Shown here: piece after piece, positions 7,644 through 24,543 of the stretch
How positions within the stretch are numbered: the first letter of the stretch is position 1
Layout: each line of letters opens with the position of its first letter
Virus record (IMG/VR): IMGVR_UViG_3300036719_000943
Coordinates: 1-26,149 of that record
Reading direction: 5' to 3' (one strand)
Length of the DNA: 26,149 nucleotides
DNA from: a virus
Translations under genes and position numbers: made by a program
The notes under the pieces: model-generated
The model's input: the letters and a program-made list of their open reading frames with translations, nothing else
Told to the model about the DNA's origin: nothing
Database searches by the model: none

Positions 7644-8028
7644 AGAAGAGTACGTTATCTTCGAGAGTGATAGTAGGGAGGCTTACGATAGCCGCCCCCG
7701 GAACGCGCAAGGTACCCTGCTCGATTAAAGCTACAACCGCCGCGTTATTTGGGTCTTTATTGGTACTTGAGTTCTGGGCATAAACGAAATAATCGTAATC
7801 CCCGGTCTCCGTCAAAAGGACGTTATTCGTGGTAGTCGCGTTTGTAGCTACCTGAATCTTCGTATACCTCGGATTGTCGTTAATCACGTAACCCACGAAA
7901 TAGAAATCTTCGAGGGTCATCCGGTGTACCAGCTTGAACAGGTAATGCGTGTACGTGTAATCCCGCCCCGCGTCCTGAAGCGTGAGGTAGATGTTCTGGT
8001 TACCGCTATTCGAGTTTAAGTACAACAT
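7630..8028 (-). CDS. Small virion-type protein (hypothetical structural)
   Basis: The protein has 132 residues and alternates beta strands and turns (QNIYLTLQDAGRDYTYTHYL, YFVGYVINDNPRYTKIQVAT, YDYFVYAQNSST) with a Thr/Asn-rich middle, resembling small beta-rich virion proteins. It overlaps the second glycosyltransferase by 23 bases and the portal gene by 14, so it is transcribed with the head genes. No catalytic residues or membrane segments are visible. It may decorate the head or tail; the exact role is unknown. Confidence 0.65.
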   Translation of the reverse strand: MLYLNSNSGNQNIYLTLQDAGRDYTYTHYLFKLVHRMTLEDFYFVGYVINDNPRYTKIQVATNATTTNNVLLTETGDYDYFVYAQNSSTNKDPNNAAVVALIEQGTLRVPGAAIVSLPTITLEDNVLFYGNE

Positions 8029-8692
8029 CTCGAGGGATTAGGTGTGCTTCGGGTACTACTTCGTCGAGGTCGTAGTTCTCGGGGCTGTACTTATAACGCG
8101 CAAAGGCACTAACATTTACGGAACTCTTTACATCTGCTACCGTAGGCGTTTGGCTCCAGAAGGGTTCTACCTTCGTTTTCTCCCAGACGCTCCGCCGGGA
8201 ACAGCCGTCTAGACCTACCTGCCTATCAGTCCACATAACCGGGACTGCATCTACCAAACGTCTAGCCATAAAGCGACCGGCCCCCGAAGCGTAACCCCGA
8301 AACAAAGTCCCTTCTCTGGTGTCCGCTCGGAACATGTAGATATTTCGAGACCCGGCGAACTCGTACTCTTTCATCAGTTCTACGATATGCGCGCCGCCTC
8401 CCGGGAGGATGAAATCGTCCGAACCTAACTGGAGCATAAAGTCCCACGAGAAATCCCGCATCCAGTCGAGTAACTCGTTATTCTTTGTTCCCAGTCGTTC
8501 GTTCGCGAACCACTTGTAGTTCCATCCGAATTCCTGTGCGAGTTGCTCGTGTTCGTCTTCTGAAACCGCGATATACGGAACCAGTTCGGCCCCGTTTTCT
8601 TGGAACTCCTTTTGGATTCTCTGAAGGCCTACGTAGCAGGCTCGCGTAAGTTCTACCCGCTTCCAGACGGGTATATGAAGGGCTATTTTCAT
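8006..8692 (-). CDS. Glycosyltransferase-like protein (GT-A type), second of pair
   Basis: The ATG at 8692 overlaps the preceding stop (ATGA) and gives 228 residues; the longer frame to 8833 runs over the preceding gene and begins with low-quality sequence. The N-terminus MKIALHIPVWKRVELTRACY is typical of GT-A enzymes. LQLGSDDFILPGG (about 90-102) supplies a DxD-like metal and nucleotide-sugar site. RYASGAGRF-like and SRRSVWEKT segments may line the acceptor site. It would transfer a sugar to a phage or host target. Sequence alone cannot name the sugar. Confidence 0.75.
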   Translation of the reverse strand: MKIALHIPVWKRVELTRACYVGLQRIQKEFQENGAELVPYIAVSEDEHEQLAQEFGWNYKWFANERLGTKNNELLDWMRDFSWDFMLQLGSDDFILPGGGAHIVELMKEYEFAGSRNIYMFRADTREGTLFRGYASGAGRFMARRLVDAVPVMWTDRQVGLDGCSRRSVWEKTKVEPFWSQTPTVADVKSSVNVSAFARYKYSPENYDLDEVVPEAHLIPRDVVLKLE

Positions 8693-9315
8693 GGGAAGTA
8701 AATACGGTATAGGCGTGGCCAGTTGTGGTGGTGTAGGTCCCAGATAGTCAACCCCTCCGGCGGGGGGATATAGCCGAAATAGTCGGCTTTGTGCGGGAGG
8801 GCGTAGGCCTTTACCTCGTTCTTCCGCATCCAAGAACCTACCAAAATATCAAGGCAGTTCCAGTCGTATTCGAGACCTTCGAGCAGGGCCGCGTAGATAG
8901 TCGCAGGATAGAACGAAACTCCGGTCCCCGGAACGTCTACCCGCTTCGTGTCTGGGTTCGCACGGAGGCAGTGCGCTACGGCCTTCGGTTCCTGTCCGTG
9001 TACCTCTTTGCCGTGGTGGGTGAGGATAGCATTCGGAAAGGCCCCCGAATAGTTCAAGAAATCTTCTACGTACGTAGGTGGGTATATCAGGTCGTCGTCG
9101 CACGAAATAAAGTCCCCCGGCACGTGTGCTAGCTTGGAGAAGTCCCCTCGGTTTGGTCCGTGTGTAACCGTTATCCAGTCCGTTTCTAAATCGAGCGGGA
9201 AAGATTCGTCCGCCCAGTAGATATACAACTGTCGTACCTGTCCCTTTAGGGAAAATATAGCCTCTTTGGAGGCGGGCCACCGTTCGGGAAGGCAGGCCAT
9301 GCCAGCGTTAACCAT
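8689..9315 (-). CDS. Glycosyltransferase-like protein (GT2-like), first of pair
   Basis: I place the start at the ATG at 9315 (208 residues), because the open frame upstream to 9360 runs through a terminator hairpin. The N-terminal half has GT-A features: RQLYIYWADES, then HVPGDFISCDDDLIYPPTYV with the aspartate-rich DxD motif at about residue 80. GTGVSFYPATIYAALLEGLE and DWNCLDILVGSW follow as likely acceptor-side segments. It directly follows the tail-tube-like gene and overlaps the second glycosyltransferase. The position suggests modification of virion proteins or of host surface glycans. Confidence 0.78.
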   Translation of the reverse strand: MVNAGMACLPERWPASKEAIFSLKGQVRQLYIYWADESFPLDLETDWITVTHGPNRGDFSKLAHVPGDFISCDDDLIYPPTYVEDFLNYSGAFPNAILTHHGKEVHGQEPKAVAHCLRANPDTKRVDVPGTGVSFYPATIYAALLEGLEYDWNCLDILVGSWMRKNEVKAYALPHKADYFGYIPPPEGLTIWDLHHHNWPRLYRIYFP

Positions 9316-9320
9316 ATAGC

Positions 9321-9347
9321 AAAGAAAAGGCCGGGAATACCCCGGCC
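9321..9347 (-). terminator. Rho-independent terminator after tail-tube gene
   Basis: On the minus strand GGCCGGG pairs with CCCGGCC around a five-base loop and is followed by TTTTCTTT. It separates the tail-tube-like gene from the glycosyltransferase pair. No strong promoter is visible after it, so the downstream genes probably depend on read-through. Confidence 0.8.
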
Positions 9348-9372
9348 CTATCCTAACCAAGAAAACAAACCT

Positions 9373-22306: not shown

Positions 22307-23458
22307 TCATCCTATCCGGTACCTCCCGTAGTTCGGGTTACTCTGGTTGAACATAGCCGCATACCTCGCCGCGTCGATAGCGTGGTTAAACGCGTCTACC
22401 GGTTCGTTGAGGTTCTTCCCGTTTTTGTCCTCCTTCCACTTGTAGTTCCGTAGTTCCTTTATCAGGTTCAGCGAACGGGACGTAACGGCCAAAGGCTTCG
22501 AGTGGAAGAACTGAATTCCCGCACGTACGGAGTCGGGACCCTTCCGCGCTGGGTGTACGTTCATCCCGTACCCGTGTAGTTCGTCTATCGACTTCGGTTC
22601 GGCGCTGTCTGCGATAACGGTATTCTTCCCGACCTCCGATTCGAGCAGTTGGAATATCTGCCTATTCGAAAGGCCGTTCTGGTATAGTACCTCATCGAGC
22701 AGGAACGCCTCCCCGTCCGAGTAGACCGCTACGCACGCCGTCGGGTCGTTCGTGTATCCGAAATCCAGTCCGTAGGCTACCAGCTTAAAGCGTGGGTCTA
22801 TGGTTTCGGTTTGGCTCCAGTGGGTGAGGATGGTGCTTCGGGATTGTCCCCGCTCTCCGAGTCCGTAGATTCTCCAGTAGTTGGGGTCGGCCACTTGTAA
22901 CCGTTCAATCTCGGCAACGAGGGACGGTTCAAGGAAGGGGTTATCTCGGAACGTCGACTGAAAGAACGTGGCATCTTCTCGAGGTATTACGTGGTCGTAT
23001 ATCCAGTGGAATTCGTCGGAGGGGTTGTAGTCCAAAAGTACCTTACCCGTGGTTCGGATAAGCAACTGCCTGAAGTCTTCGAGGTTTAGTTCGTTCGCCT
23101 CGTTTATGAAAAGTACGTCTCGCTTGCGTCCGCGTATCTTCTGGGGCTGGTCAATACTGATAAATTCTATCAGGTTCCCCTCGAGGATATAGGTCGCGTC
23201 GCTCTTATTGTGGTTTACCTCTGTATAGATTCCTTCGCGCTTGAGTATCTCGAAGAAGTCCCGCATAACGGAAGCACGGAGGGCCGGGAAGGTCTTTCGG
23301 CAAATGGTGAGTACCGCCCCGCCGTTTGGGTTCCTGTAACAGAACTCGACCAGAGAAAGGAGGATAGAATACGTTTTGCCCGAACGGGTACCGCCCTGGT
23401 GTACCTGAATCCGGGTCTTACAGTTGCGTACGTCGTAGTACGTCTTCGCGAGTTTCAA
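22307..23458 (-). CDS. terL: Terminase large subunit (packaging ATPase/nuclease)
   Basis: The protein has 383 residues. Walker A is GGTRSGKT (22-29), Walker B is DVLFINEAN (about 114-122), and the coupling motif LLDYNPSDE follows at 141-149. The nuclease domain has candidate catalytic aspartates at Asp232 (YGLDFGYTND), Asp284 (VIADSAEPKS) and Asp362 (HAIDAARYA). It cleaves the concatemer and pumps DNA into the procapsid. It overlaps the small subunit by 4 bases. Family assignment is very secure. Confidence 0.96.
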   Translation of the reverse strand: MKLAKTYYDVRNCKTRIQVHQGGTRSGKTYSILLSLVEFCYRNPNGGAVLTICRKTFPALRASVMRDFFEILKREGIYTEVNHNKSDATYILEGNLIEFISIDQPQKIRGRKRDVLFINEANELNLEDFRQLLIRTTGKVLLDYNPSDEFHWIYDHVIPREDATFFQSTFRDNPFLEPSLVAEIERLQVADPNYWRIYGLGERGQSRSTILTHWSQTETIDPRFKLVAYGLDFGYTNDPTACVAVYSDGEAFLLDEVLYQNGLSNRQIFQLLESEVGKNTVIADSAEPKSIDELHGYGMNVHPARKGPDSVRAGIQFFHSKPLAVTSRSLNLIKELRNYKWKEDKNGKNLNEPVDAFNHAIDAARYAAMFNQSNPNYGRYRIG

Positions 23459-23796
23459 AGGCCTTCGCCGTTAAGCCATGAAAGGGGCGAGCGTTCCGTT
23501 ACCTCGATTTCCTGTCGCTCGATATATCCCCGCTTCTTTCCTTTGGTCTTCAGGTAAAAGATAGTCGCGGCGGGGTTCCCCTCTTTTACGAGTTTGTAGA
23601 GGTGCGATTCTGCAAAGTCGATTACGCTTTCTTGGATGGATTCTACCGCCGCTTTATAGGCGGGGTCTTCTTTAAGCCATTCGTAATGCTGGGTCCGTCC
23701 TACGTTCGCTTTCTTGGATGCAGTCGACACGATACCGAGAGACAATTCCAAAGCCTCCAGCATGGCCTTTTTCCGATGTTCGGTTTGTTCTCTCAT
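23455..23796 (-). CDS. terS: Terminase small subunit-like protein
   Basis: The 113-residue protein has a helix-turn-helix near the N-terminus (LGIVSTASKKANVGRTQHYE, then WLKEDPAYKAAVE) followed by VIDFAESHLYKLVKEGNPAA and TIFYLKTKGKKRGYIER. This is the pattern of phBC6A51-type small terminases, which bind packaging sites and present DNA to the large subunit. Its overlaps with the large subunit and with the ParB-like gene (4 bases each) support co-translation. Confidence 0.88.
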   Translation of the reverse strand: MREQTEHRKKAMLEALELSLGIVSTASKKANVGRTQHYEWLKEDPAYKAAVESIQESVIDFAESHLYKLVKEGNPAATIFYLKTKGKKRGYIERQEIEVTERSPLSWLNGEGL

Positions 23797-24341
23797 GCTT
23801 TGTTAACGAGTTCAGCCTTCTTTCCTGTGAAGTTCTCCCACGCTTGAATGACTACCGCTATTTGTGTGGTGTTTTCTGGTAGTGCGTGTTCCTTTACTTG
23901 GAGGGTGTGGTCTCCTAACTTCCACTTCTGGTCCTCCGTGTCCTTTTCGCGAACCTCGGTCTCTTCTTCAGGGGTCCACACATCGAGTCCCCAGTCCTCC
24001 AACTGGTTTGCGTCCCACTCATTCGCGAGGATATCCCAGTCCCATTCTCCGTACCCTACGTTATCCTTGATTATGAATTCTTCTTGCTGGGAATCGAGCC
24101 ACGAAACCACGTGAACGGGAACCTCCCGCAGTCCGGCTTCTTTGCAGGCCCGTAGACGCATATTTCCGCCCAATACAACCCCGTCCGGCGTGCAGACGAT
24201 AGGGCGTACCTCTAACATCTGCGGGAACGCTCTAATCGACTGAACGAGTTTCTGGAATTTGTCGTCTTTGATTACGCGGGGGTTCTTCGGGTTTGGCTTG
24301 AGGGTATCAAGTTTTGCCCGTTGTGGTCCAGTATTCTTCAT
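23793..24341 (-). CDS. ParB-domain protein with remnants of a lost methyltransferase domain
   Basis: The protein has 182 residues. The first 115 form a ParB/Srx-type domain: NPKNPRVI (18-25), then GGNMRLRACKEAGLREVPVH (58-77), the standard ParB core. In many phages this domain is fused to a DNA methyltransferase through a linker reading EDWGLDVW and WKLGDH. Both are present here (115-122, 140-145), and the extreme C-terminus (VVIQAWENFTGKKAELV) resembles the usual methyltransferase end, but the catalytic middle, including any (D/N)PP(Y/W) motif, is absent. It is therefore probably an internally deleted fusion. A nuclease or NTP-binding role remains possible. Confidence 0.82.
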   Translation of the reverse strand: MKNTGPQRAKLDTLKPNPKNPRVIKDDKFQKLVQSIRAFPQMLEVRPIVCTPDGVVLGGNMRLRACKEAGLREVPVHVVSWLDSQQEEFIIKDNVGYGEWDWDILANEWDANQLEDWGLDVWTPEEETEVREKDTEDQKWKLGDHTLQVKEHALPENTTQIAVVIQAWENFTGKKAELVNKA

Positions 24342-24543
24342 CGTGCCAAATTTCGCCCATTACGTCCCTCGCTATTACTTCGAGCCATGCACGGTCTACG
24401 GAATCGGCCGGACGGATTCTTTCCGTGTACTGGGTATCTTGGTGGTACGTAGGTCTCGGTACGTACGAATGAATCTTACCCTCCCGGGCGTACTTGAGTA
24501 TTTGCGCCGCTATCTGGTGGCGTTCTTCTTTCGTGTAACTCAT
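24307..24543 (-). CDS. Small hypothetical protein, 78 aa
   Basis: The product begins with a helical charged segment (MSYTKEERHQIAAQILKYAR) and later has DSVDRAWLEVIARDVMGEIW. No motif is recognised. It starts in an ATGA overlap with the 26-residue membrane peptide and ends 35 bases inside the ParB-like gene. It belongs to the accessory block upstream of terminase. The function is unknown. Confidence 0.65.
   Translation of the reverse strand: MSYTKEERHQIAAQILKYAREGKIHSYVPRPTYHQDTQYTERIRPADSVDRAWLEVIARDVMGEIWHDEEYWTTTGKT

Follow-up and report, generated by a model that had tools for sequence, protein, structure and literature searches.

A methyltransferase-free ParB-head protein encoded before terS in a phage with close relatives that carry fused or separate enzymes

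The ParB-head gene and its surroundings

The window, that is, the whole 26,149-nucleotide stretch of viral DNA analysed here, contains on its minus strand an open reading frame (23793-24341) that translates into a 182-amino acid protein. The gene overlaps terS by four bases (23793-23796), and terL follows. A sequence-only reading had described the gene as a ParB-methyltransferase fusion that kept its frame and its coupling to terS and lost its catalytic core by in-frame deletion; the open frame and the coupling were borne out. The features of the locus are:

22307..23458, minus strand: terL (PF04466, E 1.7e-24; PF17288, E 3.5e-16)
23455..23796, minus strand: terS, its N-terminal part variable among close relatives (PHROG 309, E 2e-7; PHROG 4044, E 1e-5)
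23793..24341, minus strand: ParB-head protein without a methyltransferase, 182 amino acids (translation; PF02195; same allele in at least 13 further contigs)
23804..23845, minus strand: methyltransferase-derived 3′ end WENFTGKKAELV, ~43 nt common to fusion alleles (DNA identity; hhalign)
23845..23965, minus strand: probable replaced segment of ~40 codons, without counterpart in the methyltransferase alleles examined (blastn, shuffle test, borders)
23967..24341, minus strand: constant head, codons 1-125, with predicted ParB_N fold and conserved GEWDWDILANEW/LEDWGLDVW (DNA identity; pLDDT; fold matches)
24307..24543, minus strand: small ORF of unassigned function, upstream of the ParB gene and overlapping its start

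Pfam analysis placed a ParB_N domain (PF02195) at residues 9-94 (E 1.3e-7; 32 bits against the curated cut-off of 26.3), in agreement with the ParB domain proposed earlier. The best PHROG match, to the DNA methyltransferase family phrog_498, covers residues 6-133 only (E 1.7e-27). The lack of a catalytic core was likewise confirmed, as the protein matched no methyltransferase family in Pfam and contains no DPPY/SPPY-type methyltransferase motif. Pfam searches also matched no helix-turn-helix (HTH) in the protein and no ParA-type partner among 34 ORFs of the window.

Close relatives and alleles

A scan of viral contigs, in which 80 loci were kept of 215 relatives, and a second scan with the tail as query together placed the short allele in at least 13 other viral contigs from 12 datasets. 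Complete copies of 180-182 amino acids are present at L001-L008; those at L009, L016, L017 and L019 lack their 5′ end, and L083 came from the second scan. L082, which is the contig of L005, and L020, which stops before the tail, were not counted. Protein identity to the window is 97.8-100% over the matched part in the first 12 contigs and 96% over 56 tail residues in L083. Loci of the same phage group mostly share 88-97% DNA identity with the window over the longer aligned stretches, and five of them (L010-L014) encode fusions of 373-425 amino acids with SPPY or DPPY cores, ending in CDVIVKRWEDFTGKKAELVS. The presence of such fusions in near-identical phages confirms that the window carries a methyltransferase-free allele. 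At L015 the same head bears a different short tail and is followed by a gene that matches the Mom profile built in this work (E 8.3e-43), two of whose seeds, in L030 and L029, match the Pfam Mom family PF25680 with E 2.1e-41 and 3.4e-48, respectively.

The short allele is recurrent and, judging from its codon variation, apparently under purifying selection. When the window and the 13 copies are taken together, 35 synonymous and 6 non-synonymous codon variants fall in the head, and 10 and 5, respectively, in the tail; these are counts of distinct codons per site and not of events on a tree. A decaying, functionless relic of a fusion allele would be in keeping with the missing enzyme and with a full tail that peptide scans found only in this phage group; however, the frame is open in all 13 other contigs and non-synonymous variation is low in both head and tail, and this explanation seems very unlikely.

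Cellular genomes contributed seven related loci at 25-40% identity, which match the head only (one extends to residue 133) and give no clue to the host or the tail. The nearest TerL proteins in isolated phages are those of Flavobacterium phages (40.7%), so that a Bacteroidota host is likely for the phage of the window.

Borders and origin of the middle segment

Nucleotides 1-375/376, the head, are 95.7-97.6% identical to the fusion alleles L010-L014, or 95.2-97.6% when the Mom-associated L015 is included. Base-by-base comparison with the fusions shows that identity collapses past nucleotide 375/376 and is regained only 42-43 nt from the stop codon; over the last ~43 nt it is 88.4-95.3% to the five fusion alleles. 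With the short allele L002 as the reference, 39-42 of the last 46 positions are identical in the fusions versus 19-20 of the preceding 46, and in L015 just 9 of the 46 final positions agree. These borders were taken from blastn and the base-by-base comparison and not from multi-locus identity columns; the columns of L010-L015 in the ParB tail and of L002 in terS were left out because they are distorted by long inserts.

Among the loci collected, blastn matches the 121-nt middle to short alleles only, the next matches being 13-15 nt long with E 0.31 or worse; the DNA of the segment was searched within the collected loci, with peptide scans in addition. The middle is thus foreign, and the gene does not consist of two methyltransferase ends with a gap between them. 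A frame-shifted methyltransferase remnant was considered as the source of the middle and rejected, as blastn, which is independent of frame, gave no such match among the loci collected. At the protein level, the 42-residue middle scored 39 against 22 methyltransferase-like proteins, a level attained by 37 of 200 shuffles. The motif WKLGDH, earlier read as a linker typical of fusions, was not confirmed as one.

The 3′ end behaves differently from the middle. In accord with the C-terminal tail recognised by the sequence-only reading, the final 19 residues align with methyltransferase ends (hhalign probability 96.2%, E 2.5e-9). Comparison of the tail with five other tail classes, the CxxC class being outside this comparison, gave hhalign probabilities of 0.1-0.7%. 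The tail-query scan added 63 further loci, and all 13 of those inspected by eye are methyltransferase ends.

The head and the final 19 residues common to the fusions are what an in-frame deletion within a ParB-methyltransferase gene would leave, with the specificity or docking module then reused as a packaging-site recogniser or a methylase decoy. Yet the middle 121 nt occurs in none of the fusion alleles collected, though its flanks are 88-98% identical to theirs, and the linker match is at shuffle level. Where a clean gap against the fusions had been anticipated an unrelated segment of ~40 codons instead occupies the position of the core and is sharply delimited at either end. Because of this foreign segment, the in-frame deletion in its simple form was rejected on the loci collected, and reuse of a deleted fusion is considered quite unlikely. 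Most of the tail is probably an unrelated segment that was swapped in, as the distribution of DNA identity suggests.

terS alleles and recombination

Variation continues into terS. The N-terminal part of TerS is 62-85% identical to that of the window in 12 of the 14 relatives compared, with identity recovering beyond it, and the variable block spans about 23670-23821. By eye, the variable part looks helix-turn-helix-like and the remaining TerS is nearly constant. Five TerS start alleles were distinguished by eye among L001-L019, L083 and the window, with L009 carrying the allele of the window; the terS identity column of L002 is unreliable because of an inserted TerS-like ORF. The short ParB allele is combined with TerS allele D in L006 and L083 and with allele E in L007, L008, L016 and L019, and the methyltransferase allele with D in L010, L011 and L013 and with E in L012 and L014. 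TerS of L014 begins as E and becomes D-like further along. The presence of all four combinations indicates that exchange between the ParB tail and terS has happened, and exchange at the gene end can explain the shared end without a functional reason.

An ORF between ParB and terS (L002:1872-2390, also in L003, L004 and L017) combines a TerS-like start with a MUG113/T5orf172 domain, which we take to be of the GIY-YIG type. This ORF is possibly a homing nuclease that drives exchange at terS.

Frequency of enzyme-free ParB proteins before terS

A search with TerL as bait gave at least 600 candidates, of which 80 loci were kept, and the upstream region was classified with profiles built from the loci, so that the enzyme classes are those covered by these profiles. 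Short ParB followed by terS is the arrangement at 37 of the 80 loci. Included in the 37 are L002 and L004, with an HTH/GIY-YIG ORF between ParB and terS, L161, with a methyltransferase-like ORF upstream, and L174, with 1.3 kb of unclassified sequence between terS and terL. A fused methyltransferase is present at 13 loci, short ParB with Mom at nine and short ParB with Tet_JBP at four. The remainder comprises loci with a methyltransferase ORF between terS and terL (two), unclassified ORFs (two), a methyltransferase end only (four), a contig too short (seven) and no ParB head (two). The 13 loci with TerL at 98-100% divide into five short, two fused, one partial methyltransferase and five too short. 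At L212 (3291-4001, by Pfam) and L218 (by the profile built here only), a separate methyltransferase ORF lies in the terS/terL interval, and the ParB protein is short and CxxC-tailed.

Methyltransferase-free ParB proteins before terS are common. Homologues of similar length that carry no methyltransferase speak against the deletion origin put forward by the sequence-only reading, whereas its prediction that the end of the protein aligns to methyltransferase ends holds for the final 19 residues.

Tail type and partner enzyme

The relation between tail and partner was counted in 154 distinct head or fused proteins after 47 duplicates were dropped. Fused methyltransferases account for 79 of these, many of them from the tail-end scan. 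Two tail types are each accompanied by Mom (6/6 and 6/6) and one by TAGT (4/4); another is found with TAGT/Tet_JBP in three of four cases, the fourth being unclassified, and a single similar tail with Tet_JBP. CxxC tails are directly followed by terS in 30 of 33 cases (one Mom, two unclassified), the 30 including L212 and L218, where a methyltransferase comes after terS. Window-type tails have terS next in all nine distinct cases, as does one further type in four of four, with an unclassified ORF between at L187. The eight tails outside the classes are associated with TGT-like (two), PAPS (two), TAGT, Mom and Tet_JBP genes (one each) and an unclassified gene. Pfam searches on representatives support Mom in L029, L030, L049 and phage phiEf11, TAGT in L043, L064 and L074, Tet_JBP in L043 and PAPS reductase in L050. 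Tail type thus tends to follow the neighbouring enzyme in these sequences; since the classes were set after the tails had been viewed and several counted loci also seeded the enzyme profiles, the relation is a pattern and not a test.

Isolated phages provide two related arrangements. In Enterococcus phage phiEf11, Mom (E 1.8e-45) comes after a ParB-like protein of 173 residues, whose 21.1 bits fall short of the ParB_N cut-off. In Bacteroides phage BS-TP3, a 196-residue ParB is followed by another protein in which ParB_N is combined with a methyltransferase domain, and terS comes after that.

Modification enzymes in the window genome

Matches from several relatives reach both ends of the window and leave them ~250 bases apart (470 in L001), which makes the window a near-complete genome of ~26.5 kb. 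In 34 of its ORFs there is no methyltransferase, Mom, TAGT, Tet_JBP, TGT-like or PAPS-reductase gene by Pfam, and the enzyme profiles built here found no modification-enzyme gene in six-frame ORFs of at least 40 amino acids. PF01555 is present in the record of L013 and was not found in those of L157 (27.9 kb), L001 (a 10.8-kb fragment) and L005 (a 13.2-kb fragment). Two overlapping ORFs of the window (8006-8833 and 8689-9360) look glycosyltransferase-like by eye; neither matched Pfam or PHROG, and tblastn against the phage collection gave no match for the second.

The short protein might serve a modification enzyme that comes in trans from the host or from another phage in the same cell, an arrangement for which the separate ParB and enzyme genes of phiEf11 and BS-TP3 offer a parallel. 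The near-complete genome without a modification enzyme and the consistent position of window-type tails before terS argue against such a partnership, which appears unlikely.

Predicted fold and comparison with known proteins

The predicted model has block-mean pLDDT values of 75-95 for residues 1-90 and 33-59 from residue 121. Foldseek matched the modelled head to a ParB-nucleotide structure with E 6e-7 and, more weakly, to sulfiredoxin (E 7.6e-4); the ParB proteins matched were solved with CTP analogues or CDP (7bnr, 7bm8, 6sdk). The head is thus predicted to adopt the ParB/sulfiredoxin fold. The GERR motif of ParB aligns with GGNMR in the 182-residue protein, and G58-R62 is invariant in 33 aligned sequences with many tail types, which indicates that enzyme-free alleles retain this portion of the head. 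DNA contact by the protein is assumed, because no DNA-binding HTH was matched in it.

The protein shares its head, its last ~43 nt and its place before terS with ParB-methyltransferase fusions (PHROG 498; ParB_N + N6_N4_Mtase), and differs in having ~40 foreign codons instead of the core. Short phage ParB-like proteins (PHROG 620 and 17622, some of them next to a Mom, TAGT or Tet_JBP gene) have the same head and gene order and a similar length; in contrast, the window tail belongs to none of the CxxC, Mom-linked and TAGT-linked kinds. The N-terminal nucleotide-binding fold is, by the model, common to chromosomal ParB/Noc CTPases, whose HTH and ParA partner were not found for the window protein.

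No prior report of ParB heads with exchangeable modification partners was recognised by title among the matches listed, which lie mostly outside subscription literature. The ParB link may have been published before, in a NAR paper of 2013 on the TET/JBP and TAGT systems. DNA nicking by the prophage ParB-methyltransferase BCE_0392 is reported, with a suggested function in replication or packaging (PMC3459991, PMC5512222). A Psychrobacter phage with a ParB gene near terS is described in PMC10434257, and CRISPR spacers that target a ParB gene in PMC7761591; the passages found in PMC13190303 contain nothing on the ParB/terS locus.

Proposed explanation: an enzyme-free allele at a recombining locus

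In similar phages, a near-constant head is joined to different methyltransferase cores, to a short tail with a separate Mom gene, or, as in the window, to a segment of ~40 codons that runs out into the final ~14 codons of the methyltransferase allele. The explanation we favour, with somewhat better than even confidence, is that the gene represents an allele without an enzyme at a recombining ParB-tail/terS locus of phages, at which the head acts without an enzyme and the tails serve as adaptors. Short-ParB loci that have a methyltransferase close by (L161, L212 and L218) count against it. A middle cassette would be exchanged between homologous flanks, the head on the left and the gene end plus terS on the right, and such exchange would make the methyltransferase-like end mainly a recombination seam. 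The head would have a job of its own for which the enzyme is not needed, probably nucleotide-dependent binding or nicking of phage DNA near packaging. The tails, whose fold is modelled at low confidence, may be partner-specific adaptors, and the window allele would do its work with no modification enzyme, together with the terminase or alongside it.

A more far-reaching version is offered tentatively, and may well prove incorrect: a common packaging-linked ParB head whose adaptor is swapped with or without an enzyme (methyltransferase, Mom, TAGT/Tet_JBP or others), of which the window allele would be a dedicated enzyme-free form that acts with the terminase on phage DNA, the DNA-binding domain of the adjacent terS being reshuffled at the same hotspot.

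A ParB-methyltransferase from a phage is readily taken for a modification enzyme to which an accessory domain is attached. In the present, otherwise very similar phages it is the accessory domain that stays constant and the enzyme that can be exchanged. Close phages in which a single locus holds a methyltransferase, or a Mom-type enzyme, or neither amount to a natural experiment in which the head's own role is testable. The more interesting result is the pattern, seen across the family, in which tail type and modification enzyme go together.

Other ParB-head genes in the collection

ParB heads with other tails precede PAPS-reductase genes or, by eye, tRNA-guanine-transglycosylase-like genes at L039, L050 (by Pfam), L018 and L048; in the last two, the TGT-like genes matched nothing in Pfam. 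Many enzyme-free ParB heads among L157-L223 end in a short CxxC motif (CETCGK, CKHCxKMIP), which is perhaps half of a zinc site.
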